From Candidatus Polarisedimenticolaceae bacterium (GTDB lineage Bacteria > Acidobacteriota > Polarisedimenticolia > Polarisedimenticolales > DASRJG01), in the NCBI GenBank assembly GCA_036376135.1, contig DASVAW010000102.1, positions 1 to 46,906 on the forward strand: DNA of 46,906 nucleotides, written 5' to 3'. Each line of letters begins with the position of its first letter. The first letter of the stretch is position 1. Shown here piece after piece: positions 3,480-40,127 of this stretch. The translations under genes were made by a program, and so were the position numbers. The notes under the pieces are model-generated. The model was given only the letters and a program-made list of their open reading frames with translations. It was not told where the DNA came from and searched no databases.

Positions 3480-6449
3480 ATGGCCCTACGGGTCGCCGCC
3501 TTTTTCCTTTCGTTCACGCTCGCCGCCGCCGCGGAGCCGCCCGTCCTCGACGCCGCCAGGGCCGTCGTGCTCGAAAACGTCGCCTGGAAGGTCGGGGACG
3601 CGACGTTGCGAATCGAGAAGGCCGTCGCAGCACCCTTCGCGTCCTCCGACGGTCCACCGCTCGAGGTCGCGCTCTACGGGAGGGCGACCCTCGAGTGCGC
3701 CCCGCGGGAACCGGTCGAAGCGGCCTACCTCGAGGTCTTCACCGGAATGCGCGAGATCCGGCTCGATGGCGACGCCGCGGTGCTGACCACCGCCGACCCC
3801 ACGCTCGTCGAGCGGCTTCTTCGGGACAAACCCTCGACTGCGGCGGCGGAGGGACTGTCGGGCGCCGAAGCATTCGCGAAGGAATGGCCTGCGTCCCCGG
3901 AGTACCGGCGCCTCGGCATCGACCTCGCGCGCTGGCGTTCGCGAGCGGGCGACAGCGGCCTCGCCGGATTCACGGCGGTCGTCGTGCGTACGGGCGCGTT
4001 CGGTCGGGTCTACGCGGCGCTCGACCCGGAGGATCTCGAGCCGTTCGCCCTCGGCCGATTCGTTCCGGTACCGATCGGCGACCACGACGCCGACACGTTG
4101 CGCCGGGCGATTCAGCGCGAGCGTCATGCGGGCCGGTACCTGGAATTCAACGTCGCCGACGTCGGCGACTGGGATTCGTGGGTCCGGTCCGCTCCGCGCG
4201 ACGCCGCCGGGGAGCCGGCTCGAGGGGCGGCGGGATTCGACGTCGAGCGATACGAGCTCGACGTCCGCATCCAGAAGGGGGGCGAATTCCTGCGCGGCCT
4301 CGCGACGGTGCGGCTGCGCTGGACGGCACCTGCTCGTCGCACGGCCAAGTTCTCGATGTTGTCGGACCTCAAGGCGACCGCGGTGCGGGATGGCAGCGGC
4401 ACTCCGCTTCCGTTCGTGCAGGTGAGGGGCGTCCTGGCCGTCGCCTTCCCCGCACCCTCGGCGCCGGGAACCCCGGCGGAGCTCTCGATCGACTACCAGG
4501 GCGCCGCGCTCGAGAAGGGAGACGGCGGCTACTGGTGGTCTCGGAGCACCAGCGGCTGGTACCCCTCGGGCGGCGACTCCCGCTCCACCTACGACGTCAC
4601 ACTCCGGTGGCCCGAACGGCTCGACCTCGTCGCCTCGGGGAAGCGGATCGACGGCGGGACCGACGGGGACGATCTCTGGGAGCGCCGCGTTCTCGAGACG
4701 CCGGGGCTCGCGTTCTCCTTCGAGGTCGGACACTTCGACGTCGTCCGCGAGAAGTATCGCGACGTCGACGTGACCTTCGCGTTCGGTGCCGCACCGGACC
4801 CTGTCGCGAAGGACCGGCAGAAGGCCGTCATCGAGACCACGCTCGAGGCCCTGAAGGCCTTCGAGTCGCTCTTCGGCGACTACCCATTCCCGACGCTCAC
4901 CGTCGTGACCGTGCCGCGGGGGTTCTCGCAGGGATTCCCGGGATTCGTGAGCCTCGCTCACGGGTTGTTCGAAGAGGGCGGCGGCTGGCGAGTCCTCGGG
5001 GGCATCCCGTACGACCCGCGGAAGGGAATGGCGATCGCGACCATCGCCCACGAGCTCTCCCATCAGTGGTGGGGCAACAAGGTCGGGTGGTGGAGCTACA
5101 GGGACCAGTGGCTCAGCGAGGCGCTCGCGAACTTCTCGGGCACGTGGTTCACGTATTATCGGCTCAATCGCGACGACGAGTACCTGGCAGGTCGCGGATG
5201 GATGTGGCGGCAGGGATTCGACGACCTTTCCGACGGCGGCCGGCCGGTCGGCGAGCTGGGTCCCGTTGTGCTGGGAGACCGCCTCGATTCCAGCCTGAGC
5301 GACGACGCGTACCGCGTGACCGTCTATGACAAGGGAGCGCTTGTCTTCAACACGCTCGTGCAGGAGATCGGAGAGGCGGACTTCCTCCGCATGCTGCACC
5401 TGCTCGCCGACCGGGTGAACCACCGCCGCATCGACACCCCGACGTTCTTCAAGGCGATCGAGCGGATGTCGGGGCTCGACCTGAAGCCGTTCGTGGCGAC
5501 CTTCGTCGAGGGCACGGTCTATCCCCAGATCGCCGCGCGTCACGAGATCGTCCCCGGGCAGAACGGGGGCTGGCTCGCTCGCGGCGAGGCGACGGTGACC
5601 GGGTCGAGCCTCGCGAAAGCGATGTTGCGACGCGACGCCGCAGGGCGATGGGACGTCGCGATCCTCGCGACCGCCCCTCCGCCGCTGGCCGTGACGCGCC
5701 TCACGGTGCCGTGGCGCGCCGGGTTCGGGGAAAAATCGGAGGACGTCGCGGACGGCCGCGTCACCCTCCAGGTCCCGTCTGGGACATTCGAAGTCGCCTT
5801 CGACCGAAAGCCCACGACGTTCCGCCTCGATCCCATGGGGACCGTGTTCGCCGACTGGAAGTCCGAATCGGGGAGCACCGCCAAGGCGGCCCTCGTGGCG
5901 CAAGGCATGCGCGCGACGCTCGGCGGGCGCCACGAGGCGGCTGCCGAGCTGTTCCGGAAAGGGCTCGCCGTGCCTCCGGGCGACGGGAGGGATGCGGCGG
6001 ACGCCGCCCGCCACGTGGACGGCGGCGCACACGTCGGGTTGGCCCGCGCCGCGCTCGGCCTCGGCAACGACGCGGAGGCGCGGGAGCAGCTCGAGCAGGC
6101 GGACAAGCTCCTCACGGGCTGGCTGAGCAACCGCTTCCGCGACGAGCGGGACCTGCTGCGAGCGCGACTCGAAATACGCGCGGGCGATGCCGAGGCCGCC
6201 TACGACCGGCTTGCGCGACGGCTCTATCTGCCGTTCCGCCAGAGCGCGGGGGAAACCACCGTCGAACAGGCCCGTCGGGTGAAGTTCTCCGACGGCCGGG
6301 TTGGAACCGCGGAGTCGTATGCGGTTCTCGCGCTGGCCGCGAAGCTGACGAAACGCCCCGAGGTTTCGGAGATGGCCGCCGCGGAAGCCGCAAAACGCGG
6401 AGCCGACCTCTCCGCGCTCGAGGACGCGGAGCCGGAGCGCGGCCGCTAA
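3480..6449 (+). CDS. Secreted M1-type zinc metallopeptidase, second tandem copy
   Basis: A 989-aa paralogue of the preceding gene, beginning at ATG with a matching signal peptide. The first 40 mature residues are nearly identical between the copies (both carry VVLENVAWKVGDATLRIEK). The zinc site is HELSHQWW near residue 524, with the glutamate in WLSEAL 18 residues after the second histidine. GXMEN is again replaced, here by SQGFPGFVSL. The C-terminal region repeats the KRLYLPFRQ-type helical segment of copy one. The open frame extends far upstream, but the signal peptide and similarity to copy one fix the ATG at 3480. The stop overlaps the stop of the convergent methyltransferase gene by four bases. 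Substrate is unknown. Confidence 0.9.
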   Translation: MALRVAAFFLSFTLAAAAEPPVLDAARAVVLENVAWKVGDATLRIEKAVAAPFASSDGPPLEVALYGRATLECAPREPVEAAYLEVFTGMREIRLDGDAAVLTTADPTLVERLLRDKPSTAAAEGLSGAEAFAKEWPASPEYRRLGIDLARWRSRAGDSGLAGFTAVVVRTGAFGRVYAALDPEDLEPFALGRFVPVPIGDHDADTLRRAIQRERHAGRYLEFNVADVGDWDSWVRSAPRDAAGEPARGAAGFDVERYELDVRIQKGGEFLRGLATVRLRWTAPARRTAKFSMLSDLKATAVRDGSGTPLPFVQVRGVLAVAFPAPSAPGTPAELSIDYQGAALEKGDGGYWWSRSTSGWYPSGGDSRSTYDVTLRWPERLDLVASGKRIDGGTDGDDLWERRVLETPGLAFSFEVGHFDVVREKYRDVDVTFAFGAAPDPVAKDRQKAVIETTLEALKAFESLFGDYPFPTLTVVTVPRGFSQGFPGFVSLAHGLFEEGGGWRVLGGIPYDPRKGMAIATIAHELSHQWWGNKVGWWSYRDQWLSEALANFSGTWFTYYRLNRDDEYLAGRGWMWRQGFDDLSDGGRPVGELGPVVLGDRLDSSLSDDAYRVTVYDKGALVFNTLVQEIGEADFLRMLHLLADRVNHRRIDTPTFFKAIERMSGLDLKPFVATFVEGTVYPQIAARHEIVPGQNGGWLARGEATVTGSSLAKAMLRRDAAGRWDVAILATAPPPLAVTRLTVPWRAGFGEKSEDVADGRVTLQVPSGTFEVAFDRKPTTFRLDPMGTVFADWKSESGSTAKAALVAQGMRATLGGRHEAAAELFRKGLAVPPGDGRDAADAARHVDGGAHVGLARAALGLGNDAEAREQLEQADKLLTGWLSNRFRDERDLLRARLEIRAGDAEAAYDRLARRLYLPFRQSAGETTVEQARRVKFSDGRVGTAESYAVLALAAKLTKRPEVSEMAAAEAAKRGADLSALEDAEPERGR

Positions 6450-7120
6450 CCCTTCCGCCTCCCCTCGAACAGCAGGTTCGCGAACGGCGTCCCCGCTCCC
6501 ATCGGCCGCACGGTGACCTCGAACCCCGCGCGCTCGAGTTTCATGCGCCACGCGGTCGCGGTACGCCAATGAAACCGTTGCGACAGGTCGCCCCGCGCGA
6601 TCGCGGCGAAACGCTCGCCCAGGCGCACCGCCCAGAACGGCCACCCCGCCGCCGCATCGGCCTCGCGCAGGAGCAGCAGGCCCCCATCCGACAGCGCGGC
6701 CGACGCGCGGTCGATCAGCCGGTCCTGCTCCGCCTCGTCGAGGTAGTGCAGGACGTCGAGGATCGTCACGACCGAACACTCCGGGATCGCGACCTCCCCG
6801 GCGTGGCCTCGCACGATCGTCGCGTCGCCGCGCAGCGCCGTCCGGGCGACCGTCGCGGCGGCCTCGCGCGGCTCGATGCCGTGGAGCTCGAGCCGGTGCC
6901 CCGTGACGCCGCGCGCCTCGGCGAGCAGCGCCAGGAGGATGCCCCGGCCGCACCCGACGTCCACGAGACGGCCCTGCGTCGGAAGCGCCACGGACTCGAC
7001 GATCCCCCGGTAGAGCGGATCCCCGGCGAGCTTGCCCTTCACGAAATGGAAGTCGAAGCGCCCCGCCGACGCGTAGCGCGCGGCGGCCCGGTCGACGACC
7101 TCGGGGGGAAGCGCGGTCAC
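6446..7120 (-). CDS. Class I SAM-dependent methyltransferase of the aryl-polyene-like locus
   Basis: A 224-aa protein with a Rossmann methyltransferase fold. Motif I reads VDVGCGRG near residue 54, an acidic/post-I region follows in HGIEP, and VVTILDVLHYLDE corresponds to motifs II/III. It starts at a GTG that overlaps the TGA of the upstream deacetylase gene (GTGA), which suggests translational coupling and sets the start even though the frame is open further upstream. It is last in the leftward arm AMP ligase, deacetylase, methyltransferase. Aryl polyene clusters commonly carry methyltransferases that modify the aromatic head group, so methylation of the lipid product is an inference from context. 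The acceptor cannot be read from sequence. Confidence 0.82.
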   Translation of the reverse strand: MTALPPEVVDRAAARYASAGRFDFHFVKGKLAGDPLYRGIVESVALPTQGRLVDVGCGRGILLALLAEARGVTGHRLELHGIEPREAAATVARTALRGDATIVRGHAGEVAIPECSVVTILDVLHYLDEAEQDRLIDRASAALSDGGLLLLREADAAAGWPFWAVRLGERFAAIARGDLSQRFHWRTATAWRMKLERAGFEVTVRPMGAGTPFANLLFEGRRKG

Positions 7121-7869
7121 GGCAGCGGCACCGCGCGAAGCCCCGCGCGATCGATCGCGTCGAGCACGCGCGGGAGCGCGTCGAGGACGACGCGATGCCC
7201 GGGGCCGTCGTGCAGGACCAACACGTCCCCGGCACGCAATCCCCGCGTGAGCCGCGCGGCGACCCGCGAGGCGTTGGTGTCGACGGCGTCGAAGCCGCGA
7301 CGCGTCCACGAGGCGAGGGAGATCCCGCGCCGTCGCAGCTGCGGATCGAGCCACGGCGGGCGAAGCCCGGCGGGTGCCCGGAACCAACGCGGCGCGCGCC
7401 CCGCGAGCGCCCCGATCTCGCGCTGCGCGCGATCGATCTCGCGCCCGACGGCTCCGGGAGGGAGCACCGAGAAGGCGTGCGAGTGGCTCCACGTGTGGTT
7501 CTCGACGCGATGCCCCCGCCGCACGATCGCGCGCACGACCTCCGGGTGCGCGACCGCGCGCGCGCCGACGAGGAAGAACGAGGCGCGCGCGCCGCGCGCT
7601 TCGAGCAGGTCGAGCACGCGCGGGGTCACGTCGGGGTCGGGACCGTCGTCGAACGAGACCGCGACCTCGCCCCGCGCCGCCGCGTCGGGCCCGAGCCGCA
7701 CGAGGTTGTCGCCGAGAAGGCGGCTGCGCGGCCAGAGCGCCGCGCCGTAGATCGCGGCGTGGTCGGCGACGCAGGCCGCGACGACCCACGGCCAGCTCGA
7801 CGGCGCGAGCGCGACCGTCGCGAGCCCCGCCGCGTGCAGCGCCGCGGACGCCTTCAGCAGCGCGGTCAC
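7117..7869 (-). CDS. Membrane-anchored polysaccharide deacetylase (NodB domain, CE4)
   Basis: A 250-aa protein with about 45 N-terminal hydrophobic residues (one or two membrane segments) followed by a NodB homology domain. The CE4 motifs are intact. Motif 1 is FDDGPD at residues 73-78, with the general-base and metal-binding aspartates. Motif 2 is HTWSH at 125-129, giving the two metal-binding histidines. Motif 3 is in RAPAG and a C-terminal LVLHDG matches motif 5. The enzyme should remove N- or O-acyl groups from a sugar, on the periplasmic side if the N-terminus is an anchor. The GTG start overlaps the stop of the AMP ligase gene, and the downstream methyltransferase overlaps in the same way. 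A deacetylase is not a core aryl polyene enzyme; it may act on the sugar added by the cluster's GT2 enzyme. Confidence 0.88.
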   Translation of the reverse strand: MTALLKASAALHAAGLATVALAPSSWPWVVAACVADHAAIYGAALWPRSRLLGDNLVRLGPDAAARGEVAVSFDDGPDPDVTPRVLDLLEARGARASFFLVGARAVAHPEVVRAIVRRGHRVENHTWSHSHAFSVLPPGAVGREIDRAQREIGALAGRAPRWFRAPAGLRPPWLDPQLRRRGISLASWTRRGFDAVDTNASRVAARLTRGLRAGDVLVLHDGPGHRVVLDALPRVLDAIDRAGLRAVPLP

Positions 7870-9170
7870 GCGAGCGCGCTCAGCGCGGCGCGGTCGAGCT
7901 TGCCGCGTTCGGTGCGCGGGAGCTCCTCGACGAGCACGACGCTGCGGGGGACCTTGTGGGGGCTCAGTCGCTCGCGGCAGCGGGCGAGGAGCGTCTCGCG
8001 GTCCACGGCGCCGGGCTCGCACGCGACGACCGCCCGCAACACGTCCCCGTCGCCGATCACGACGACCTCACGCACGCCGTCGCAGGCCGCGATCACCGCC
8101 TCCACCTCGCGGGGGTGGACCTTGCGGCCGCGGACGCTGATCACGTCGTCCCGGCCGAGCAGGCGCCACTCCCCGTCGGCGGTCCGCTCCGCGGCGTCGC
8201 GGGTCCGGTACACGCCGCCGGAGACCGCGGCGGAGGCGACGACGACGGTCCCCGACTCGGGATCGAGGGTGACGCGCACGCCGTCCATGGGTGTTCCCAC
8301 CGTGCCGCGCTCCCCCGCGCCGCCGAGCCGGTCGTAGCAGATCCCGCCCGTCTCGCTCGAGCCGTAGAAGACGTGCACGGGAAGGCCGAAACGCTCGCGG
8401 AAGCGGCGCGCCGTCGCGGGGTCGAGCGGGGCCCCCGCCGTGAGCACGAGGCGCACGGATCGCGGCGGAGGCGGAGGGGATTCGAGCCGGACGAGCGCCT
8501 GGAGGAACGCCGGCACGGTCGGGAAGACCGTCGCGCGCCACCGCTCGGCCGCCTCGAGCGCCGCCCACGGCCCCGCCCCCGGATCCGGGAGGACGGCGGG
8601 GCAGCCGCGCGTGAGGACGGGGACCGCGACGCTCGACAGTCCGTAGGAGTGGGACATCGGGATCGCGCCGAGGATCCGGTCCGCCGCCCCGATCCCCATC
8701 GTCGAGGCGATCTGCGCCTCGTCGGCGACGAGGTTCGCGGCGGTGGCCTCCACCCCGCGGGGCTCGCCGGTCGATCCCGAGGTCAGCTTCAGCGCCGCGA
8801 TCCCAGGGTACGCGCGCGGTCTCCCCTCGCACGCTCGCCACGACCACGTCCCGCGCCACGAGAGCACCGCGCTCGCGCCGAGGCGATCGGCGACGCGCGC
8901 GACCTCCGCCCCGGGCATGCGCGCATCCGCGAGGATCGCGGCGAGCCCGGCACGGCGCAGCGCGAGGAACCCCGCGAGGAACGGGACGCCGTCCGGGGCC
9001 TGCAGGACGGCCGCCCCGGAGCGCGACGCGGAATCGACAGCCTCCCGCGCCTCGCGCGCCGCTGCGTCGAGCACGTCCCGCGAGATCTCCCGCTCGGGTC
9101 CGAGCACGGCGGGGGCGCCGGCGTCGGCGCGCCGCAGGGCGTCGAAGGCGTGCACGAGGACGTCGGTCAT
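7866..9170 (-). CDS. AMP-dependent acyl/aryl ligase (ANL superfamily), ApeH-like
   Basis: A 434-aa adenylate-forming enzyme. The phosphate-binding loop is TSGSTGEPRG at 130-139, the A5 motif YGSSETGG is at 269-276, the hinge region reads RDDVISVRGRKVHPREVE, and the catalytic lysine is K424 in the C-terminal RGKLDRAAL. It is shorter than typical acyl-CoA synthetases (500-550 aa) but close to the compact ligases of aryl polyene clusters, which activate a starter acid and load it on the acyl carrier protein. It is divergently oriented from an acyl carrier protein gene, separated by 63 bases. It is followed by overlapping deacetylase and methyltransferase genes. Aromatic starter specificity is an inference. 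Confidence 0.85.
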   Translation of the reverse strand: MTDVLVHAFDALRRADAGAPAVLGPEREISRDVLDAAAREAREAVDSASRSGAAVLQAPDGVPFLAGFLALRRAGLAAILADARMPGAEVARVADRLGASAVLSWRGTWSWRACEGRPRAYPGIAALKLTSGSTGEPRGVEATAANLVADEAQIASTMGIGAADRILGAIPMSHSYGLSSVAVPVLTRGCPAVLPDPGAGPWAALEAAERWRATVFPTVPAFLQALVRLESPPPPPRSVRLVLTAGAPLDPATARRFRERFGLPVHVFYGSSETGGICYDRLGGAGERGTVGTPMDGVRVTLDPESGTVVVASAAVSGGVYRTRDAAERTADGEWRLLGRDDVISVRGRKVHPREVEAVIAACDGVREVVVIGDGDVLRAVVACEPGAVDRETLLARCRERLSPHKVPRSVVLVEELPRTERGKLDRAALSALA

Positions 9171-9233: not shown

Positions 9234-9521
9234 ATGAGCCACGGCCCCGAACTTCGACTCCGGATCAAGGAACTCATCGTCGAGAGCCTCCGCTTCGACG
9301 GGATGGACCCCGCCTCGATCGAGGACGACGCGCCGCTCATGGGCGAAGGACTCGGCCTCGATTCGGTCGACGCGCTCGAGTTGATGGTCGCCCTCGAGAA
9401 GGAGTTCGGCGTCAAGCTCGAGAACGCCGAGGTCGGCCGCGCGGTCCTGAAGTCGGTCTCCACCCTCGCGGCCTTCATCGCCGAGCGTCGAGCGGCCGTG
9501 GGGAAGCCGGGTGAGGCCTGA
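9234..9521 (+). CDS. Acyl carrier protein
   Basis: A 95-aa four-helix carrier protein. The phosphopantetheine attachment site is S44 in the context GLGLDSVDALELM, which matches the DSxD/E signature of acyl and polyketide carrier proteins. Acidic helix II/III residues (ALEKEFGVKLEN) are typical of dedicated type II systems. It is the first gene of the rightward arm and overlaps the following ketosynthase by 11 bases. It should carry the growing chain for the ketosynthase pair and dehydratase of this locus. No phosphopantetheinyl transferase is visible in the window, so activation probably relies on a genomic enzyme elsewhere. Aryl polyene clusters usually have two carrier proteins; only one is present here. 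Confidence 0.92.
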   Translation: MSHGPELRLRIKELIVESLRFDGMDPASIEDDAPLMGEGLGLDSVDALELMVALEKEFGVKLENAEVGRAVLKSVSTLAAFIAERRAAVGKPGEA

Positions 9522-10734
9522 GTCGACGGTCGTCGTCACCGGACTGGGCGCGGTAACCGCCCTCGGGGGATCGGCCGGCTCCACCTGGCGCGGCCTCCGG
9601 GCGGGACGCACCGCCATCGCCCCGTTCTCCCGCTTCGACGCCGCGCCGTTCCGGACGCACCTCGCCGGAGAGGCCGATGTCCCCGCAGGGGAATCGGACC
9701 TCCGTGCGGAGCGACTGACACTCGCGGATCGCTTCGCGCTCGCCGCGACGCGCGAGGCGCTCGAACAGTCCGGCCTCGACCTTCACGCGGCGCGGGCGAC
9801 CCTCGGCGTCTTCTTCGGAAGCTCGACGGGCGGGATGTGGGAAACCGAGGTCTTTTTCGAGCGCGCCCTCGCCTCGGAGATGCGCCGGCTGCGCGCCGAT
9901 CTTCTCGCGCAGCAGCAGTACAACGCCCCGGGCGACGCGGTCGCGCGGCGGTTCGGGGCCGAGGGCCCGGTCGAAACGGTCTCGGCCGCGTGCGCGTCGG
10001 GATCGATGGCGCTCGGGATGGCGCTCCACGCCCTCAGGCGCGGCGACTGCGACGTCGCGATCGCCGGCGCCGCGGACTCCCTCTGCCGCATCACCTACGG
10101 CGGATTCAACGCGCTGCGTTCGGTGGACCCCGAGCCCTGCGCGCCGTTCCGCGCGCGGCGACAGGGGCTTTCGATCGGCGAGGGCGCGGGCGTGGTCGTG
10201 CTCGAGCGACGCGAGGCGGCGTTGTCCCGAGGTGCCTTGCCCCTCGCGGAGCTGTGCGGCGCGGCGTGGTCCTGCGACGCGCACCACATGACCGCGCCTG
10301 CGCCGGACGGGTCCGGCGCGGCGCGCGCCCTGCGCTCGGCCCTCGCGGATGCGGGGGTCGGCGCCGAGGCGCTCGACTTCGTCAACGCCCACGGAACGGG
10401 GACCCCCCTCAACGACGCCGCCGAGGCACGCGCGATCCGCGAGGTGCTGGGCGACCGCGTCCTCCTCGTGCCCGTCGTGTCGACGAAGTCGATGGTGGGG
10501 CACCTCCTCGGCGCGGCCGGCGCCGTCGAGGCGGTGGTGACGATCCTCTGTCTCGCCGAGCGCGAGGTCCATCCGATGCCCTCCGCCGGCGCGATCGACG
10601 CCGAGATCGGGCTCGAGCTGGTGATCGGGACGCCGCGTGCGCTGCCGCACGCGCGCTTCGCGGCTTCGCTGAACCTCGCCTTCGGCGGCGCGAACGCCGC
10701 ACTCGTGCTCGCCCGCGCCGACGCGAGGGGCTGA
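9511..10734 (+). CDS. Beta-ketoacyl-ACP synthase (FabF/ApeO-like), catalytically complete
   Basis: A 407-aa thiolase-fold ketosynthase starting at GTG inside the end of the carrier protein gene. All catalytic elements are present: nucleophile C161 in SAACASGS, H294 in HGTGTP, the lysine in STKSMVGH, and H331 in GHLLGAAG. It therefore should perform decarboxylative Claisen condensation of malonyl-ACP onto the acyl primer. The next gene is a related protein that lacks the triad, so the two probably form a KS/chain-length-factor heterodimer, as in aromatic type II polyketide and aryl polyene systems. Housekeeping FabF is the alternative identity, but the neighbourhood (GT2, MMPL, LPLAT, ligase) argues for a specialised lipid. 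Confidence 0.93.
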   Translation: MRPESTVVVTGLGAVTALGGSAGSTWRGLRAGRTAIAPFSRFDAAPFRTHLAGEADVPAGESDLRAERLTLADRFALAATREALEQSGLDLHAARATLGVFFGSSTGGMWETEVFFERALASEMRRLRADLLAQQQYNAPGDAVARRFGAEGPVETVSAACASGSMALGMALHALRRGDCDVAIAGAADSLCRITYGGFNALRSVDPEPCAPFRARRQGLSIGEGAGVVVLERREAALSRGALPLAELCGAAWSCDAHHMTAPAPDGSGAARALRSALADAGVGAEALDFVNAHGTGTPLNDAAEARAIREVLGDRVLLVPVVSTKSMVGHLLGAAGAVEAVVTILCLAEREVHPMPSAGAIDAEIGLELVIGTPRALPHARFAASLNLAFGGANAALVLARADARG

Positions 10735-10736
10735 CG

Positions 10737-11930
10737 GTGGCATCGGTCGTCACGGGAATCGGCCATGTCGGCGCCTCGGGGCTCGGGCTCGACGCGATCC
10801 GGCGCGCCCTCACGGAAGGCACGCCGCGCCCGGCGGTGGTCGACGCCTCCGCCGGCTGGCACGTTCCCGGGTCCGCGCGCACCGCGCTCCTCTGCGCGGA
10901 GGCGAACCTGACCCCGTGGGTGTCCCCGGCCGCGGCGCGGCGGATGAGCCGCCCCTCCCGCCTCGCCGTCGCCGCCGCGCGGATGGCCCTCGAGTCGGCG
11001 ACCGCCGGGTGCGAGCCGGACGGCGTCGTGTTGGCGACCGCCTTCGGCCCGGCGGCGTTCACCGAGAAGCTGCTCCGCGAGATCCTCGCCGATCCCGAGA
11101 CCGCCTCGCCGTTCCTGTTCACCGAATGCGTCGCGAACGCCCCGACCGCCGAGGTCGCGATCGCCCTCGCGGCCCGTGGGACGAACTGGACGATCACGCA
11201 GCGCGAAGCCGGCCCGTTGCTCGCCCTCGCCCGCGCGGCATCGGAGATCGACGAAGGCCGGGCGAGGGCGGTCGTCGCCGGCGCGGTCGAGGAGATGACG
11301 CCGATGCTGCACGGCGTTCTCGACCGGTTCCGTGCCCTCGCGAGGCCCACCCCGGACGGCGAGGCCGCACGTCCCTTCGACGCCCGCCGGAACGGGTTCC
11401 TCGTCGCCGAAGGCGCGACGATGTTCCTGGTGGAGGACGAACACGACGCCACCCGCCGCGGCGCGCGGCCGCTCGCCCGCGTGATCGCGAGCGGCGCCGC
11501 CTTCGATCCGACGGCCACGCCGGGAACGTGGGGAAGGAACGGAGCCGGGCTCGGGCGCGCGATGCGACGCTCGCTCGAGCGAGCGGGGATCGACCGGACG
11601 ACGATCGGCGCCGTCGTCTCGGGTGCGTCGGGAGCGGTGGACGGGGATCGCGCGGAAGCGGAGGCGCTGGGCGCGATGTTCGAGGGGACGGCCGTTCCCC
11701 CGGTCCTCGCCCCCAAGGCGGTCGTGGGAGAGTTCGCGGGAGCGTATCTCGCGGCGCCGTTCCTCGCCGTCGAACCGTCGACCTTCCCGGCCACCCCGGG
11801 TTTCCGTACCCCGGATCCGGCCCTGGGCGTCGTCCCGTGGCAGGGGGGCCCGATCTCCGCCTCGCGCGTCCTCGTCACCGGGCTGGCGTCGGGGGGCGCC
11901 GCCGCCTGGGTCGTCCTGGAGCGTCCGTGA
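10737..11930 (+). CDS. Degenerate ketosynthase / chain-length-factor-like protein
   Basis: A 397-aa protein with the thiolase fold but no ketosynthase triad. Aligning its NAPTAEVAIAL stretch with NAPGDAVARRF of the preceding enzyme places E157 (in TQREAG) at the nucleophilic cysteine. The HGTGTP histidine is replaced within SGASGAV, and the GHLLGAAG histidine is replaced by glutamate in VVGEFAGA. The protein starts two bases after the upstream stop and ends in a GTGA overlap with the GT2 gene, so the two ketosynthase-type proteins should be made together. By analogy with type II PKS and aryl polyene KS/CLF pairs, it likely shapes the chain-length pocket or stabilises the active partner. A glutamate rather than the usual CLF glutamine at the cysteine position is unusual. 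Confidence 0.83.
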   Translation: MASVVTGIGHVGASGLGLDAIRRALTEGTPRPAVVDASAGWHVPGSARTALLCAEANLTPWVSPAAARRMSRPSRLAVAAARMALESATAGCEPDGVVLATAFGPAAFTEKLLREILADPETASPFLFTECVANAPTAEVAIALAARGTNWTITQREAGPLLALARAASEIDEGRARAVVAGAVEEMTPMLHGVLDRFRALARPTPDGEAARPFDARRNGFLVAEGATMFLVEDEHDATRRGARPLARVIASGAAFDPTATPGTWGRNGAGLGRAMRRSLERAGIDRTTIGAVVSGASGAVDGDRAEAEALGAMFEGTAVPPVLAPKAVVGEFAGAYLAAPFLAVEPSTFPATPGFRTPDPALGVVPWQGGPISASRVLVTGLASGGAAAWVVLERP

Positions 11931-12628
11931 TCGCGCGGGTCGCCGCGGCGATCCCGGCGTACCAGGCTGCGGCCACGGTCGCCGCCGTCGTGACCGGTAC
12001 GCGGCCGCTCGTGGCCGAGCTCATCGTGGTGGACGACGGTTCGACCGACGGCACGGGGAATGCCGCCCGCGCCGCCGGGGCCGAGGTGCTCGTGCACGCG
12101 AGCAACCTCGGCAAGGGGCGGGCGCTGCGGACGGCGTTCGACGCGCTCTTCGCGCGGGGCGCCGACGCCGTCGTGACCCTCGACGCGGACGGGCAACATC
12201 GCCCCGACCAGATCCCCAGACTGATCGACGGCGCCTCGGGGGGAGCCGACCTCGTGCTCGGGACGCGCGACCACGTCTTCTCCGCCATGTCCCCGGTGCG
12301 GCGGGCGAGCAATCGGGTTTCGTCGTTCGTGATCTCGGCGGTCGCCGGCGTGCAGCTGCGCGACATCCAGACGGGCTTCCGCCTCTACACCCGCAGGCTC
12401 GTCGACGCGTGCGGCTTTCCCGAGCCGCGTTTCGAGGCGGAGAGCGCGGTGATCATCCGCGCGGCGCGACGGGGCCTCCGGATCGAGATCGTTCCCGTGA
12501 GGATGGACCTCGTCGACGGCCGCGCGACGAGCCACTACCGCCCGCTCGTGGACAGCCTGCGCATCGCGTTCGCCGTCGCGAAAGCCCGGCTCGAGCCTGC
12601 GGCGGAGCACCCGCGGGAGCGTCCCTGA
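11927..12628 (+). CDS. Family 2 glycosyltransferase (DPM1-like)
   Basis: A 233-aa GT-A glycosyltransferase with no membrane segments. The nucleotide-binding DDGSTDG lies at about 36-42 and the metal-binding DAD triad at 86-88 in LDADGQHRPDQI. The later segment DIQTGFRLY is typical of the dolichol-phosphate mannose synthase-like GT2 branch. The length suits single-domain GT2 enzymes of aryl polyene clusters. It starts at a GTG overlapping the TGA of the chain-length-factor-like gene, with GGAGCG just upstream as ribosome-binding site. It probably transfers a sugar to the lipid product or its anchor; the deacetylase in the leftward arm could then act on that sugar. The donor is unknown. Confidence 0.88.
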   Translation: MIARVAAAIPAYQAAATVAAVVTGTRPLVAELIVVDDGSTDGTGNAARAAGAEVLVHASNLGKGRALRTAFDALFARGADAVVTLDADGQHRPDQIPRLIDGASGGADLVLGTRDHVFSAMSPVRRASNRVSSFVISAVAGVQLRDIQTGFRLYTRRLVDACGFPEPRFEAESAVIIRAARRGLRIEIVPVRMDLVDGRATSHYRPLVDSLRIAFAVAKARLEPAAEHPRERP

Positions 12629-12666: not shown

Positions 12667-15600
12667 GTGCTCACCGGTCGCGCGGGAGCGATCCTGCTCG
12701 CGGCGGGCGCGGTGACGGCGCTCGCGCTCCTCCCCGCGTCGAGGCTCACGCTCGAGTCCGATCTCCCCTCGCTGCTTCCCGAAGGGTCACGGGCCGCCGA
12801 CGACTACCGGGTGTTCCTCGACTCCTTCGGCGGGCTCGAGAAGGTCTTCGTCCTCCTCGAAGCGCCGGAGGGCGCCGCCCCCGAGGCCCTCGGCGAGGCG
12901 GCGTTCGCGTTGGCCGACCGCCTCTCGGCCTGCCCTGAGGTGCGGTCGGCCCGGGCGGGGCTCGGCGACGACGACGAGCGTTTCTTCCTCGACTCGATCG
13001 CGCCGAATGCGCCGCTGCTGGAACCCGCCGGCCGCGTCGCGGCCGCTCTCGCCCCGGGAGCGGTCGAAGCGCGCATCGACGCCTTGCGCCTGGCTCTGGC
13101 GTCCCCCGGCGGCTCGGCGACGGCCTCGTTGGCCGCCGCCGATCCGCTCGGCCTCGCCGCCGAGCGCCTCGGTCGCGAAGGTGCCGGCTCCAGCCTTCCG
13201 GTCGATCCGACGACCGGAGCGTTCCTGTCCGGGGACGGCCGCGCGGCGCTGGTGATCGTGACTCCCGCGCGCGCCGAGACGGACGCCGCGGGGGGGCGCG
13301 CGTTGCGGGTCGCGCTCGACGCCGCCTGGGACGACGTCCGCGGCGCGCTCCCGGCACACGTCACGATGCGCGCGACCGGCGGTCCGCTCTACGCCGCGCA
13401 CGACGAGGAGGCGATCCGGAGGGATCTCGTGCGCGTGTCGGGAGGGGCCGTCCTGGGCGTGGGACTGCTCATCGTCCTCGTCTGCGGCGGGATCGCGATC
13501 CCGCTCGCCGCCGCGGCCGCGGTGGGGTGCGGCCTCGCGTGGACCGCCGCGGCGGCCGGTTTCGGCCTCGGCTCGGTGACCGCGGTCGGGGTCGGCTTCG
13601 GGGCGATCCTGATCGGGATGGGGGACGACTACGTCAACCATCTCGGCGCGGACTACCGGGACCGGGTGCTTCGCGGAACCTCCCGGTTGCGCGCGACGGC
13701 GGGGGCCCTTCGCCGCGCCGCGCCGGGGACGATCGCCTCGGCGCTGACGACGTCGGCGGCGTTCGGGGTCCTCTCGCTCGCGCATTTCCGGCCCCTGCGG
13801 GAGCTCGGCATCGTCGTGGCGATCGGGATGCTGCTGATGCTCGCCTCGGCGTACCTCGTCGCCGCGCCGGTGCTCGTGCTGACGCTGTCGCGTGCTCCGC
13901 GGAAGGCTTCCCTGCTCGGCCGGCTCTCCGGCGCCGGCTGGCGCGCGCTCGGCGCCGCGGTCGACGCGACGGTGGGGCTCGCGCGACGGCATCCGCGCGG
14001 GACGCTCGTCACCGCCATGGTCGCGACGCTCGTCGCGGCCCCGGGGCTTGCGCGCCTCTCCCTGGATACCGACCCCCGGCGACTGCGACCCGACGACCAT
14101 CCCGGAGTGGAGGCCGCCGGTCGTCTCGCACGCCTGTTCGGCGTCGGCATGGAGACGACCACGGTAGTGGTGCGCGCGCCGGACCTCGTCACGGCCCTCG
14201 ACCGCGCCGAAGCGGTCGCCGCGCGCCTTCGCCGCGAGGTCGGCGACCGGGGGGAGGTCCGCTCTCCCTCGGACTGGCTCGTTGCGGGGGAGCGCCTCGA
14301 GGCGCGGCGCCGCGCCCTCGCCCCGTTCGATCCCGCCGGAGCGGCCGACCGCCTCGGCGCGTCGCTCGACCGCGCCGGGTTCAGCGTGGCGCCGTTCGCA
14401 GGGACGATCGCCGCCCTCCGGGTCCTCGGCGGCGCGCCCGCCGAACCGCTGCCGCCTCGCGAACGCTGGCCCGACTGGCTGCGCGACGCCGTGCGTGAGG
14501 ACGCCTCGGGAGCCGCCGTGGCGGTGCACGTCCGCCACGCCGCGACCCTTCCGGGATGGGAGCACGGTCCTCCCGAACCCCTCGTGCGGGACTTGGGAGA
14601 GGCGGCCGTCGCCTCGATCCCGCGGCTGGGTGCGGATCTGCGGCGCGTGGCCATGTCCGACCTGCGCCGCCTGGGTGGGATCGCCCTCGCGATCGTTGCC
14701 GGAATGATCCTGTTGTCGTTCCGCGGGCGGCCCTTTCCCGCGGTGCTCGCGCTGACCCCGGCGGTGCTCGGCGCGGTGTGGACCTTCGGGGTCTGGGGGT
14801 GGCTCGGCCGGCCGATCGACCTGTTCGCCCTGGCCGTCATCCCGATCCTCCTGGGGCTCGGCGACGATCACGGACTCCACGTCGTGCACCGCGCCCAGAC
14901 GGTCCCTTTCGAAGGGCTCGCCGGGGCGGCGGCCGGAAGCGGGCGTGCGATGGTCCTCAGCACGCTCACGACCTGCGCGGGATTCGCGTCGCTGCTCCTC
15001 TCCGCCGTGCCCGGGTTGCGGGACGGCGGCGCCCTCGTCGCGCTCGGCCTCGCGTGCGGCCTGGCCGCGGCGCTCCTGGTCCTGCCGGCGATCGGCGCGC
15101 TGCGCTCCGAGGGGGCGGAACCGGCACCCCCGCCCCACGCCCCCGAAGGGGGTCGCGCCCGTCGCTGGCTCGGACGGTTCCACGTCACGGGGGTCTTCTG
15201 GTTCCGATTCCACCTGTTCGGCGTCCGCCACTTCTCGTGGGGTGCGCGGGTCGGCGTGCCGGCCTTCACGGTGGTGTTCTTCGTCGCGCTGCGACGGATC
15301 CGGCGAGCGGTGGCGTCGAATCTCGAGGCGGTGCTGGGACCCTGCGGCCCGATCGAGCGCGAGCGCCGGATCTGGCGCACGTTCCTCTCCTTCGCCTGGT
15401 GCCTCACCGAGCGCTACGAGAATCTGGCCGGGGTCGCGAAGATGCGGTTCGAGATCGAGGGGCTCGAGCACTGGACCCCGATGGCGGATTCCCCCGGGGG
15501 GTTCGTGATGCTGACCGCGCACGTCGGCAACTGGGAGAGCGCCTCGATGCTTCCCGCCTCGAGATTCGACCGTCGCGTCCACGTCGTGCGGGAGGAGGAG

Positions 15601-16056
15601 CTCGACCCGCGTGCGCAGGAGTTCGTCCGGGGGCTGCTCACCTCCCGCGGAGCGACCCCGTATCTCACCCATTTCGCGACCCACGACACGTCCCTGGGAC
15701 TGGAGCTCGTGGACGCGTTGCGCGCCGGGGACGTCGTGGCGCTGCAGGGGGACCGCCCACGGCAGGCCGGTCGCTCGATCGAGGGAACGTTGTTCGGAAG
15801 GTCGTTCCGGATCCCCAACGGGGTGCCCGCGCTCGCGCGCGCCGCGGGAGTGCCGCTGCTTCCCGTGTTCGTCCTGCGCGAGGGACGGCGCCGATACCGG
15901 ATCGTCTTCCACGAGCCGATCCGGTTCGCGCCGGGGCTCTCGCGGGCCGACTCGGAGGCGGCGTTCGCCGCCCGGGTCGGCGCGAACCTGGAGGCGGCGA
16001 TCCGGCGCGCCCCCGAGCAGTGGTTCTGTTTCAGGGAGCTGTGGCCGCCGTCATGA
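12667..16056 (+). CDS. MMPL/RND-type exporter fused to an LpxL-like acyltransferase
   Basis: One uninterrupted frame of about 1129 codons encodes two functions. Residues 1-815 are an MMPL-type exporter: an N-terminal membrane helix, a periplasmic loop, a helix bundle at about 260-405, a second half starting near 445, and a second bundle at about 665-812. The paired motifs GMGDDY and GLGDDHG are visible. After a proline-rich linker (EPAPPPHAPEGG), residues 830-1129 form a lysophospholipid/lipid A-type acyltransferase with the HX4E motif HVGNWE near 952 and QGDRP further on. Between the two halves there is no ATG, GTG or TTG in frame until 15256, inside the acyltransferase domain, which supports a true fusion. 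The start is uncertain. GTG 12667 is the first canonical codon, but CTG 12625, overlapping the GT2 stop and preceded by GGGAG, would give a better basic N-terminus. Confidence 0.85.
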   Translation: MLTGRAGAILLAAGAVTALALLPASRLTLESDLPSLLPEGSRAADDYRVFLDSFGGLEKVFVLLEAPEGAAPEALGEAAFALADRLSACPEVRSARAGLGDDDERFFLDSIAPNAPLLEPAGRVAAALAPGAVEARIDALRLALASPGGSATASLAAADPLGLAAERLGREGAGSSLPVDPTTGAFLSGDGRAALVIVTPARAETDAAGGRALRVALDAAWDDVRGALPAHVTMRATGGPLYAAHDEEAIRRDLVRVSGGAVLGVGLLIVLVCGGIAIPLAAAAAVGCGLAWTAAAAGFGLGSVTAVGVGFGAILIGMGDDYVNHLGADYRDRVLRGTSRLRATAGALRRAAPGTIASALTTSAAFGVLSLAHFRPLRELGIVVAIGMLLMLASAYLVAAPVLVLTLSRAPRKASLLGRLSGAGWRALGAAVDATVGLARRHPRGTLVTAMVATLVAAPGLARLSLDTDPRRLRPDDHPGVEAAGRLARLFGVGMETTTVVVRAPDLVTALDRAEAVAARLRREVGDRGEVRSPSDWLVAGERLEARRRALAPFDPAGAADRLGASLDRAGFSVAPFAGTIAALRVLGGAPAEPLPPRERWPDWLRDAVREDASGAAVAVHVRHAATLPGWEHGPPEPLVRDLGEAAVASIPRLGADLRRVAMSDLRRLGGIALAIVAGMILLSFRGRPFPAVLALTPAVLGAVWTFGVWGWLGRPIDLFALAVIPILLGLGDDHGLHVVHRAQTVPFEGLAGAAAGSGRAMVLSTLTTCAGFASLLLSAVPGLRDGGALVALGLACGLAAALLVLPAIGALRSEGAEPAPPPHAPEGGRARRWLGRFHVTGVFWFRFHLFGVRHFSWGARVGVPAFTVVFFVALRRIRRAVASNLEAVLGPCGPIERERRIWRTFLSFAWCLTERYENLAGVAKMRFEIEGLEHWTPMADSPGGFVMLTAHVGNWESASMLPASRFDRRVHVVREEELDPRAQEFVRGLLTSRGATPYLTHFATHDTSLGLELVDALRAGDVVALQGDRPRQAGRSIEGTLFGRSFRIPNGVPALARAAGVPLLPVFVLREGRRRYRIVFHEPIRFAPGLSRADSEAAFAARVGANLEAAIRRAPEQWFCFRELWPPS

Positions 16057-16741
16057 CGCCCAGCCGGGCGCGTGCGAGAAGGCGCCCGCCCGCCTCCAGC
16101 CGTCCCTCGAACAACGCCAGCGGCGGCGCGGACGGCATCGCGCGCGCCTGAACGACGAGAGGCACACCCGCCGGCAGCGCCGACACCTCGAAGACCGCGT
16201 CGGCGACGCTGACGAGCCATCCCCGCACCGGTCCGCCGGAAACCGCCCCCGCCTGCGCCATCGCCTCCAGCGCGAGCACGACGGGGGCGAACCCCTCTTC
16301 GGCGTGGCGGGGATCGATGCGCGCGAGGCAGCGAACGACGTCGCCCCGCTCGAGCAGACGCTCGATCAGGCGCATCGCCCCGCGATGCGGGATCAACGTC
16401 TCGATGTCGGGGGACGGAGCGGGCTCCGGCTCCGGCGCGTCGAAGCCGACCCGGTCGCGCACGGTCCCCACCCGCACGAGCCCGTCGCTCGCGATCGTTC
16501 CGCCCACGCGCACGGCGAAACGACGGCGATCCTCGGAGGTCGCCGCCTCGACCGCGACCTCCGCGGTCTCGCCCGGCAGGATGACGCGGCGGAAACGTGC
16601 GCGCTCGAGGCCGACGAGCGCGAGCCCGGTTTCGCGCAGCAGCCGGTCGACGCCGTCGAGCTGCGCGACCGCCGGGAGGATCGGGGCGCCGGGGAAGTGG
16701 CCGTCGAACCACGGCTCCGAGCCGTCGAAGACGACGCGCAC
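16031..16741 (-). CDS. Two-domain hotdog dehydratase (ApeI-like plus ApeP-like fusion)
   Basis: A 236-aa protein made of two hotdog folds joined by a proline/glutamate linker at about 101-112. Domain 1 (1-100) has the FabZ/ApeI signature GHFPGAPILPAVAQLD, with catalytic H15 but aspartate D29 where FabZ has glutamate. Domain 2 (113-236) begins with ETLIPHRGAMRLIER, like ApeP-type dehydratases, and has the glutamate in LEAMAQ (E159), with H146 as possible histidine. The reaction would be dehydration of 3-hydroxyacyl-ACP to the trans-2-enoyl form, the step that builds a polyene. In aryl polyene clusters these are usually separate proteins. The gene starts at GTG four bases after the UbiE-like stop and its 3' end overlaps the exporter gene convergently by 26 bases. 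Confidence 0.84.
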   Translation of the reverse strand: MRVVFDGSEPWFDGHFPGAPILPAVAQLDGVDRLLRETGLALVGLERARFRRVILPGETAEVAVEAATSEDRRRFAVRVGGTIASDGLVRVGTVRDRVGFDAPEPEPAPSPDIETLIPHRGAMRLIERLLERGDVVRCLARIDPRHAEEGFAPVVLALEAMAQAGAVSGGPVRGWLVSVADAVFEVSALPAGVPLVVQARAMPSAPPLALFEGRLEAGGRLLARARLGVMTAATAP

Positions 16742-16745
16742 GGCG

Positions 16746-17507
16746 TCAGGCCGCCGAGGCCTTGTATTCGCCGAACACGCCGAAGTAGGTCTCGGTCGTC
16801 ACCCCGCGGAATCCGCCGGCTTCCATCGACGCGACGATCGTCTCGGGCGGAACGCACCGATGGACCGTGTCCCAGCAGTAGTGCATCAGGAGATCGGCCT
16901 TGTCGCTGCGCGCGGCGAGGCGCGCCACGAACGGGACCAGTGTCCCGAGGTAGATCCTCACCAGCCGGCGACCCAGGGCGGTCGAGGGCTTGCGGAAGTC
17001 CAGGATGAGGGCGGTCGCCCCCGGCCGGAGCACCCTTCGGTACTCCTCGAAAGTACCCTTCAGGTCGGCGACGTGACGGAGCGCGTACCCCATGCTGAGG
17101 AAATCGAACGAGGCGTCGGCGAAGGGAAGGCGCTCCGCGATCCCCTGCACGAGGGGAATCGGGAGGCGCCGCCGGGTCTGCGCGAGCATCCCGAAACTGG
17201 GGTCGAGGCCGGTCACCGAACCGGTCGGCCCCACCAGGGCCAGCGCGGCGGAGGCGACGGGGCCCGTCCCCACCGCGACGTCGAGGACGTGCATCCCCTC
17301 CCGCACCTGCGCCCGGCGGAGGGCATCCCTCCGGTACCAATCCCCCGAGCCGAACGACATCAGCCGGATGATCCGCTCGTAGTCCGGGGCCGTCTCGTCG
17401 AAGATGTCGCGTACGAAACGGCGCCGGCCCCTTTCGTCCTCGTAATAGGGGTCGAGGCGCGGGTGCGGCGCGACGGCGGCGTTTTCGGCCTCGTCCTTGC
17501 TTTTCAT
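16746..17507 (-). CDS. UbiE/MenG-like SAM-dependent methyltransferase
   Basis: A 253-aa class I methyltransferase with motif I VLDVAVGTG at 74-82 and the UbiE-type stretch GYALRHVADL, followed by VLRPGATALILDFRKP. The N-terminal part FVRDIFDETAPDYERIIRLMSFG also resembles the start of quinone methyltransferases. A role in menaquinone or ubiquinone biosynthesis is therefore possible. However, it is the first gene of a two-gene leftward unit with the fused dehydratase, only four bases apart, which ties it to the polyene-type locus. In that setting it would methylate an aromatic ring or hydroxyl. ATG at 17507 is preceded by a divergent intergenic region. Family assignment is firm; the substrate is open. 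Confidence 0.85.
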   Translation of the reverse strand: MKSKDEAENAAVAPHPRLDPYYEDERGRRRFVRDIFDETAPDYERIIRLMSFGSGDWYRRDALRRAQVREGMHVLDVAVGTGPVASAALALVGPTGSVTGLDPSFGMLAQTRRRLPIPLVQGIAERLPFADASFDFLSMGYALRHVADLKGTFEEYRRVLRPGATALILDFRKPSTALGRRLVRIYLGTLVPFVARLAARSDKADLLMHYCWDTVHRCVPPETIVASMEAGGFRGVTTETYFGVFGEYKASAA

Positions 17508-36359: not shown

Positions 36360-36956
36360 CTAGAACCTCCTGAGCGTCGTGGGCTCCGATGCAAGCATCG
36401 AATCCAGGAAATACCGGTGGACCTTGGCCTCGGCGGTGAGCTCCGGGTGGAACGTCAACGCGGTCACGCGCCCCTGGCGGACCGCCACGGGCTCCCCCTC
36501 GAGGCGGGCGAGGACCTCGACGTCGCGCCCGAGCTCGACGAACCGGGGCGCGCGGATGAACACCGCCTCGACCTCTCCGCCGAACGCGGGAGAGGCGAGG
36601 CGCGTCTCGAACGAGTCGATCTGGCGGCCGTAGCCGTTCCGCTCGACGACCGCGTCCAGCAGACCCAGGCTCGGCTGCGCCGGATGCCGCACCTCGCGGG
36701 CGAGCAGGATCGCTCCGGCGCACGTGCCGAGGATCGAATTCCCGCGGGCGTGGAACGCACGAAGCTCCTCGAACCAGGGCTCGTCCTCCATCAGGTTGAG
36801 CAGCGTCGTGCTCTCGCCGCCGGGGATCACGAGCCCGTCGAGGGCGTGAAGCTCGGCGACCCTGCGCACCTCGACGGCGGTCGCGCCGACGCGACCGAGC
36901 GCGCGCACGTGCGCGGCGAAGTCCCCCTGCAAGGCGAGCACGCCGACCGTCGCCAC
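36360..36956 (-). CDS. pdxT: Pyridoxal 5'-phosphate synthase glutaminase subunit
   Basis: A 198-aa class I amidotransferase that feeds ammonia to PdxS. The opening VGVLALQGDFAAH and the motif IPGGESTTL are diagnostic of PdxT. The nucleophilic cysteine is in ILGTCAGAILLA and the catalytic His/Glu pair in ALTFHPELT. The GTG start shares a base with the pdxS stop (TAGTG). Length is normal for the family. With pdxS it makes the DXP-independent vitamin B6 pathway, using ribose 5-phosphate, glyceraldehyde 3-phosphate and glutamine. Confidence 0.96.
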   Translation of the reverse strand: MATVGVLALQGDFAAHVRALGRVGATAVEVRRVAELHALDGLVIPGGESTTLLNLMEDEPWFEELRAFHARGNSILGTCAGAILLAREVRHPAQPSLGLLDAVVERNGYGRQIDSFETRLASPAFGGEVEAVFIRAPRFVELGRDVEVLARLEGEPVAVRQGRVTALTFHPELTAEAKVHRYFLDSMLASEPTTLRRF

Positions 36957-37846
36957 TACCAGCCCCGCGTCTGCATCAGCTCCGACTCCGGGAGCTTGCC
37001 GGTCTCGAGACCGGGCATCGCCTCGCCGAGTCCCTTCGAGACCTCGGCGACGACCTTCCAGTCGCGGTGGTGGGTCACGGCGCGGACGATCGCCTTCGCG
37101 CGCTTGGCGGGATCGGCGGACTTGAAGATGCCCGACCCGACGAACACCGCCTCGGCGCCCAGGTGCATCATCAGCGCCGCGTCGGCCGGAGTCGCCACCC
37201 CGCCCGCCGCGAAGTTCGGAACGGGGAGCTTGCCTTCCGCCGCCACGAGCCGGACGAGGTCGTACGGGGCGCCGAGGTTCTTCGCCTCGGTCATCATCTC
37301 CTCCGGCCCGAGCGTGGTGAGCCGCTTGATCCCCGAGACGACGGCGCGCATGTGGCGCACGGCCTCGACGATGTTGCCGGTCCCGGCCTCGCCCTTCGTC
37401 CGGAGCATCGCCGCGCCTTCGCCGATCCGCCGCAGCGCCTCGCCGAGATCGCGGCAGCCGCACACGAAGGGCACCGAGAAGGCGAACTTGTCCACGTGGT
37501 ACGCCTCGTCCGCGGGCGTGAGGACCTCGCTCTCGTCGATGTAGTCGACGCCCAGCGACTCGAGCACCCGCGCCTCGGCGAAGTGCCCGATGCGGCACTT
37601 CGCCATCACCGGGATCGAGACCGCGTCCATGATCTCGAGGATCATCTCCGGGTCGGACATCCGGGCGACGCCGCCGTCCTTGCGGATGTCGGAGGGGACG
37701 CGCTCGAGCGCCATCACCGCCGCGGCGCCCGCGTCCTCCGCGAGCTTCGCCTGCGACGCGTCCACGACGTCCATGATGACGCCGCCCTTGAGCATCTCGG
37801 CGAGCCCGGTCTTGAGCCTCAACGTTCCCTTGTTGCCTTCGGTCAT
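36956..37846 (-). CDS. pdxS: Pyridoxal 5'-phosphate synthase lyase subunit
   Basis: A 296-aa TIM-barrel protein that condenses ribose 5-phosphate, glyceraldehyde 3-phosphate and ammonia to PLP. The family signatures are complete: [52 protein letters not shown] and [10 protein letters not shown], including the catalytic lysines in MDVV-region and KGEAGTG. GAGGTGG precedes the ATG. It follows the MocR regulator by 12 bases and overlaps pdxT, so the regulator and both subunits should be co-transcribed. Confidence 0.97.
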
Positions 37847-37858
37847 GGGGCCACCTCG

Positions 37859-39373: not shown

Positions 39374-39415
39374 TTGGACTCCCTGAACCGGTCTACTTGG
39401 CCTAGCCCTGACCAG

Positions 39416-39443
39416 ATAATACGACGATTCTGCGCCGCTGCAA
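39416..39443 (-). promoter_or_regulatory. Promoter of the mocR-pdxS-pdxT operon
   Basis: Reading leftward, TATTAT (39416-39421) is a good -10 box (5 of 6), preceded by 16 bases and TTGCAG (39438-39443) as a weak -35. Transcription would start near 39409 and give a leader of about 36 bases before the GTG. The weak -35 directly abuts two tandem direct repeats, which suggests activator-dependent use. The -10 is followed by TCTGGTCAG, carrying a further copy of the repeat core in inverted orientation. Confidence 0.6.
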
Positions 39444-39463
39444 CTGGTCCAATCTGGTCCAAT
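39444..39463. repeat. Two tandem decamers, candidate MocR operator
   Basis: CTGGTCCAAT occurs twice back to back (39444-39453 and 39454-39463), an exact 10-bp direct repeat with one helical turn spacing. It lies between the divergent mocR and exoD-type genes, immediately upstream of the mocR -35. Direct repeats with helical phasing are typical operator architecture for MocR regulators, so this is probably where the adjacent regulator binds. Confidence 0.65.
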
Positions 39464-39485
39464 CGATCTGTTAGAGTCTCGCGCG

Positions 39486-40127
39486 GTGAAGAACTGGGAA
39501 GAGCTGCACGAGGCCTTGCGGGATTGCGCGCGCCGCGCCCGCGACAAACACCTCACGATCGGGGAGGTCCTCGACGGTCTGGGGGAGGCGAGCTATCCGT
39601 TCCTGGCGATCCTCTTCGCCGTTCCGATGCTCGTCCCGGTGAGCCTCGGCCCCGTCGCCACCGCCGCCGGCATCAGCCTCGCGGCGCTGGGATTCCAGTT
39701 GATGACCGGGCGTCCGGAGCCTTGGCTCCCGAGGCGCGTCCGCGCCATCGTCCTCCCCGAGAAGGTCTGGCTCGTCCTGATCGGCGGGGCGCTGCGGCTG
39801 TTCACCTTCTGCCGGAGTTTCACGCGCCCCCGCGGCGAGCGATGGGTGACCGGACGGCGCGGCCGGATCCTCGGCGGCGCGGTCATCGGCACCGCGGGGT
39901 TCCTGATCGCGATCCCCTTCATCGGCGTGCCGCTGAACAACACGATCCCCGGGTTCGCCGCCGTCTTCGCGTGCATCGCCGAGCTCGAGCGGGACGCGGC
40001 GATGCTCTGGGTCGCGCTCGCGTGGCTCGTGCTCTCGGTCGCCTACTTCACGTTCGTCGTGTGGCTCGTCTTCGTCGTCGGCGTGAACGCCTTCGAGTGG
40101 CTGGGCTGGGGGAAGGGCTCCGCCTAG
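39486..40127 (+). CDS. ExoD family membrane protein
   Basis: A 213-aa membrane protein of the ExoD family, named for exopolysaccharide production and alkali tolerance in rhizobia. Family signatures are LTIGEVLDGLGEASYPFLAILFAVP, the PVSLGPVATAAGISLAALGFQLM hydrophobic pair, and IPFIGVPLNNTIPGFAA. About five membrane segments are visible. The GTG start lies 22 bases from the MocR tandem repeats, so it could share that control. Its TAG stop overlaps the stop of the convergent DUF2785 gene through the palindrome CTAG. The molecular function of the family is unknown. Confidence 0.88.
   Translation: MKNWEELHEALRDCARRARDKHLTIGEVLDGLGEASYPFLAILFAVPMLVPVSLGPVATAAGISLAALGFQLMTGRPEPWLPRRVRAIVLPEKVWLVLIGGALRLFTFCRSFTRPRGERWVTGRRGRILGGAVIGTAGFLIAIPFIGVPLNNTIPGFAAVFACIAELERDAAMLWVALAWLVLSVAYFTFVVWLVFVVGVNAFEWLGWGKGSA

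Follow-up and report, generated by a model that had tools for sequence, protein, structure and literature searches.

Does a frame that runs unbroken from an exporter into an acyltransferase encode one protein, or two whose boundary has been lost in assembly, and, if one, does the join matter for how a lipid is made and exported? The question is raised by positions 12667-16056 (+) of the window, as the whole 46,906-nucleotide stretch of DNA analysed is called here, where a single open frame specifies an MMPL/RND exporter and then an LpxL/PatA-type acyltransferase (AT), 1129 amino acids in all when counted from GTG 12667. The fusion itself is probably real and recurrent, and a coupling of acylation to export is a good hypothesis for what it would do. 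The features considered are collected in Table 1.

Table 1. Features of the fused gene and of the genes around it (positions in the window)
Feature	Position	Strand	Basis
Methyltransferase	6446..7117	-	domain search
Polysaccharide deacetylase	7117..7866	-	PF01522
AMP-ligase	7866..9170	-	PF00501; ApeH homologue
Acyl carrier protein (ACP), start uncertain	9261..9521	+	PF00550; ApeE 50%
Ketosynthase KS1	9511..10734	+	ApeO homologue
Second ketosynthase-like protein KS2, chain-length-factor position	10743..11930	+	domain search, E. coli Ape comparison
Glycosyltransferase family 2 (GT2), separate gene	11927..12628	+	homologue of N-terminal half of E. coli ApeJ
Fused gene, MMPL/RND exporter + LpxL/PatA-type acyltransferase	12667..16056	+	Pfam, frame, translation
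Exporter domain, RND/MMPL fold	12667..15108	+	Pfam, model, HpnN/MmpL5 matches; last helix model residues 782-814
DDY, TM4 region	13624..13632	+	sequence
DD in GLGDDHGLH, TM10 region	14863..14868	+	sequence; relatives have GIGVDDGLH
Actual join, ~7 residues from exporter helix to conserved AT start	15109..15129	+	alignments, model
Acyltransferase domain	15130..16053	+	Pfam PF03279; fold Z 24.6 to PatA (2.7 A, 242 residues), 23.0 to LpxM (4.4 A, 255 residues)
PPHAPEGG, conserved AT N-terminal tail	15130..15153	+	alignments; pLDDT under 50
HX4E catalytic motif HVGNWE	15520..15537	+	aligned ATs
FabA/FabZ-like dehydratase	16031..16741	-	PF07977; ApeI homologue
UbiE-type methyltransferase	16746..17507	-	PF01209

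One frame, two domains

The initial annotation had read the frame as free of stops from exporter to AT, and so it is: upstream, the nearest in-frame stop lies before 11485, and the frame then continues to the TGA at 16054-16056, with Pfam families PF03176 and PF03279 both found on the one chain. GTG 12667 is the first in-frame ATG, GTG or TTG past the glycosyltransferase stop (TGA 12626-12628), and CTG 12625, which overlaps that stop, is an alternative possible start. Also as first described, the frame holds no further ATG, GTG or TTG between TTG 15016 and GTG 15256, and the latter falls within the conserved N-terminal region of the AT. None of the three forward frames has a stop codon at 14990-15500 (a second scan, of 14979-15310, gave the same), so an indel error cannot be hiding the end of an exporter gene there and a missed frameshift at the junction is ruled out; the errors that could still hide a stop are a lost segment or a wrong base. 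GC3 is high throughout the junction and codon-position base composition continues unchanged across the boundary. With GC at 75% long open frames come cheaply, though a chance open frame is not the issue when homology identifies the two domains in one frame.

What are the two halves? Pfam MMPL matches the first in two stretches (E 5e-23, 82 bits against a gathering score of 20.5), and model residues 1-817 are structurally like HpnN, MmpL5, MmpL4 and other RND proteins, MmpL5 with Z of about 41-43 over 652-662 aligned residues. The best solved relative, by sequence and by Foldseek alike, is the hopanoid transporter HpnN, which has 19% identity to the exporter half and is without an acyltransferase. 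By Pfam and by fold this half is an MMPL/RND exporter, and a pigment-like lipid is its predicted cargo. Its DDY we take to match the MMPL proton-relay D-Y, and the DD of the TM10 region presumably has the role of its match in the relatives.

Pfam Lip_A_acyltrans is found on the second half (E 3.3e-18, 66.3 bits against a gathering score of 22.3), where the HX4E motif picked out by the initial annotation has its H and its E invariant in 13 of 13 aligned ATs and, in a larger alignment of 25, the H invariant and the E at 90% or more. Prediction of the whole chain by AlphaFold (mean pLDDT 86.9, pTM 0.66) gives an RND-like exporter and a short tether of low confidence (pLDDT under 50), the placing of the two domains relative to each other in that model not being used for any reading; modelled alone, the AT has pLDDT 87.7, pTM 0.86 and a fold like that of PatA and LpxM. 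PatA (the PIM acyltransferase) and LpxM, which share the fold and the HX4E-type motif, are both stand-alone, and the next family, PlsC, lies far below them at Z 9.0. The earlier label of LpxL-type therefore holds, by fold, as LpxL/PatA-type. Against the NCBIfam equivalog or subfamily cut-off of 209 bits for PatA, LpxL and LpxM the best scores are 64.9 (whole chain) and 68.6 (AT alone), and the AT belongs to the LpxL/PatA superfamily but is not PatA, LpxL or LpxM proper.

The one part of the initial description of this protein that did not survive is its ‘proline-rich linker’. In related genomes a conserved PPHAPE...LG.FHVTG.FW follows the start of the stand-alone ATs at a distance of between a few and some tens of residues, and in the window the PPHAPE segment, of low confidence in the full-chain and AT-alone models, comes ~7 residues past the last exporter helix. 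Since that segment is also present in stand-alone ATs, the supposed linker is mostly the AT's own flexible N-terminus, and a novel linker domain was rejected on the same ground. The C-termini of RND proteins are cytosolic, and PatA and LpxM act at the cytosolic face, so that the topology is consistent with a tethered inner-leaflet acyltransferase.

The surrounding cluster and known systems

The glycosyltransferase gene ends at 12628 in a frame different from that of the fusion gene, while at the other end the fusion gene and the convergent dehydratase gene share 26 bp at their 3′ ends (16031-16056). A ketosynthase pair, ACP, AMP-ligase, dehydratase, glycosyltransferase and AT, and exporter, the aryl polyene set, are present together. 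Further along the window, at 36363-39556 (-), a SNO glutamine amidotransferase is encoded beside a GntR/aminotransferase regulator-like protein, which we take to be a vitamin B6-type pair, and near the contig end 45696-46715 (-) encodes a member of the AbiEii-type nucleotidyltransferase toxin family (Pfam AbiEii, E 8.7e-48).

With the genes of E. coli CFT073 as the aryl polyene reference, counterparts were found for the window's ligase, ACP, KS1, KS2, glycosyltransferase, AT, exporter and dehydratase. Those for exporter and AT are weak: ApeM is homologous to the exporter with a BLAST E of 4e-5, and the AT part of ApeJ to the window's AT by hhalign family profile (probability 97.4%, E 1e-11); the glycosyltransferase part of ApeJ has 30% identity to the separate glycosyltransferase. 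The E. coli ketoreductase query ApeQ had no match in the window (best E 3.5), though a ketoreductase may be too divergent for that query or encoded elsewhere, nor had the query for the LolA-like periplasmic carrier, ApeL (best E 1.3), and because of these two results the cluster is called an aryl-polyene-like type II polyketide cluster rather than a proven aryl polyene producer.

That the two halves are separate proteins in known clusters, as the initial annotation had it, is so for E. coli, where, in the sections of PMC8253772 drawn on here, ApeJ is assigned as glycosyltransferase/acyltransferase and ApeM as RND exporter. E. coli thus has its AT fused to GT2 and its exporter free, whereas the window has its AT fused to the exporter and its GT2 free; the AT has therefore changed partner. 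The model given in the same sections is of acylation onto an anchor and then export by ApeM, with attachment to the lipid anchor and handover to the exporter described there as unresolved (PMC8253772). In the portion of PMC3949708 relevant here, adjacency of an acyltransferase gene to the exporter gene is described as conserved in arcuflavin-type clusters, and the arcuflavin, xanthomonadin and flexirubin clusters share with the window an exporter beside an acyltransferase, as well as a methyltransferase, a polysaccharide deacetylase, an AMP-ligase, an ACP and a dehydratase. Going by that portion, they differ from the window in that exporter and AT are separate genes and LolA is present (PMC3949708).

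Distribution and origins of the fusion

The window's fusion is known from one metagenome assembly, the one genome of its genus. Does the same architecture, for which a search had been proposed, occur elsewhere? Three overlapping scans covered 41 genomes of the window's class, 396 drawn from its phylum and 148 from the class of two genomes, G253 and G178, and a genome was kept when its AT matched at E <= 1e-60, weaker ones being left out. This gave 31 genomes, seven from the window-class scan, 23 from the G253/G178-class scan and one (G146) from the phylum scan. Exporter and AT are fused in three (the window, G253 and G178, the last also being locus L092, from isolate OFTM27, and having stops in the other frames near its join). 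In 17 a separate exporter gene lies directly upstream of the AT gene (G020, G337, G367, G379, G410, G411, G419, G437, G438, G441, G450, G454, G455, G456, G457, G460 and G466), in five a glycosyltransferase gene has that position (G146, G385, G409, G412, G439), and other arrangements account for six (G001, G019, G023, G026, G031, G428). Among these last, G428 has its exporter ~1 kb upstream of the AT, the locus of G023 is divided between two contigs and has an ACP upstream, and G001, of the same family as the window, has exporter and AT on opposite strands. Separate exporter and AT genes overlap by the four bases ATGA at L072, L075, L079, L080, L084 and G379. In Acidobacteriota, then, exporter and AT are usually encoded by two adjacent genes, in many cases with an ATGA overlap.

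A scan of contigs from named records gave 52 loci and placed the family in Acidobacteriota, Planctomycetota, Verrucomicrobiota and Rokubacteria, with one of the 52 fused, L092, already counted as G178. A sample of 392 genomes was taken from the phylum to which G499 belongs, G499 being the genome that contains locus L081, from a Planctomycetota record; the AT was found at E <= 1e-40 in four of them, and in no case does a match extend over the exporter tail. Loci carried under two identifiers proved to be the same DNA in 24 of 24 pairs checked, over up to 800 bases. Locus L098 (5428-6348), titled Deltaproteobacteria, matches G385 of the window's phylum over 800 bases and its title is probably mislabelled, and one genome of the G499 phylum, G559, has two AT copies, L153 and L157 (E 2e-105 and 1e-77).

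Did the three fusions descend from one? In the exporter tree (22 rows) each fused exporter is paired with an unfused one of its own family: the window with G001 at 100/99, G253 with G441, of the same genus, at 99/96, and G178 with G450 at 95/90. The AT tree (43 rows) likewise separates the three fused ATs, its bootstrap not being settled; there are long branches in both, L099 in the AT tree and L079 in that of the exporter. Forcing the three fusions together was rejected by the AU test for exporter (p 5e-53) and AT (p 0.0025), so that, with the trees, a single ancestral fusion is rejected. The fused linkers differ in length and in sequence. Given the AU tests and the pairing of every fused exporter with an unfused relative, the fusion arose about three times independently, most simply from a neighbour pair.

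The AT and dehydratase genes of G001 (L034) are inverted relative to the window's exporter. The window's exporter is sister to that of G001, but its AT is not sister to the G001 AT (p-AU 0.038), which might point to rearrangement or AT replacement near the join, though differing histories of AT and exporter are too weakly indicated to claim.

Artefact, accident or coupling?

Homologues encoded as two genes in close relatives had been expected, in the initial annotation, to speak against a fusion. Such homologues do exist, apart in G001 and adjacent in the 17, yet with the fused frame present on three separate branches they mark a derived fusion and not an error. The metagenome assembly is fragmented (179 contigs) and the ATs closest to the window's (59%) are separate genes, which does leave room for a consensus that has lost the stop of one gene and the start of the next. 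However, with no stop in any frame more than an indel would have been needed, and two other assemblies have the same architecture, on contigs of 637 kb and 279 kb; an artefact of assembly or sequencing is highly improbable. Might the chain be made fused and then cut, or the AT also be started internally, with the free AT as the working form? The tether is of low model confidence, and G253 and G178 have an in-frame GTG or TTG close to the join from which a free AT could be translated, but in the window the next such codon, GTG 15256, is already within the conserved N-terminal part of the AT, and this too seems improbable, if a little less so than an artefact.

A harder alternative is that the link is real and without functional meaning, overlapping neighbours being easily fused by loss of a stop and the enzymes working as before. 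In keeping with that, the fusion derives from two genes that lie close together or overlap, occurrence is sporadic (3/31) and varies within one genus, and the linkers are unlike one another. Set against it, the same join arose three times with both domains still intact, and in E. coli the AT is joined to a glycosyltransferase, so that it repeatedly joins partners of one pathway, the fusion count being for this one gene pair of the cluster. Neutral fusion is, on balance, unlikely, though it deserves to be taken seriously. The reading preferred here, with moderate confidence, is of a real, recurrent, lineage-specific fusion by which the final acylation step in the cytosol is tied to the exporter of its product, the coupling being the conjectural part. 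It has direct support in the one frame, in both domains being intact by motif and fold, in the cluster context and in the recurrence; substrate, direction and coupling we infer.

On that preferred reading, an exporter gene and the AT gene just behind it most likely lost the intervening stop and start. The tethered cytosolic HX4E AT would move an ACP-bound aryl-polyene or fatty chain onto a sugar-bearing acceptor, suggested by the adjoining polysaccharide deacetylase and glycosyltransferase genes. The glycosyltransferase would build this acceptor, and the deacetylase might free it. The acylated product would then enter the attached RND/MMPL exporter and pass towards the outer membrane, with the covalent tether holding the last cytosolic step at the exporter mouth. 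Covalent joining is not required, as most relatives keep two genes, including G001 and also G441, from the genus of the fused G253.

Contact between synthesis proteins and exporters has precedents in PpsE-MmpL7 (PMC1238737) and MmpL5-AcpM (PMC11633376), where, in the parts of those reports relevant here, the exporter physically holds a biosynthetic protein, as in the fusion, but non-covalently and with other partners. In the open-licence PMC literature no paper was found whose title or abstract opening names an exporter-acyltransferase fusion.

Significance

The fusion is a new domain partnership within a known kind of system. It can be asked, quite tentatively, whether glycosyltransferase, AT and MMPL exporter make up a single machine at the inner membrane, with the AT as a module that swaps partners in aryl-polyene-type clusters. 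It would have been joined to the glycosyltransferase in E. coli and, on about three occasions, to the exporter in Acidobacteriota, the reason being direct handover of the acylated glycolipid from enzyme to exporter; we would lean somewhat against so broad a claim. More immediately, a recurrent natural fusion names the two proteins most likely to be in contact at the step between lipid synthesis and export, and single-chain proteins together with matched unfused sister pairs (G253/G441, G178/G450) are material for testing coupled synthesis and export. For these bacteria, the recurrence in two related ones hints that lipid making and lipid export may share one spot.
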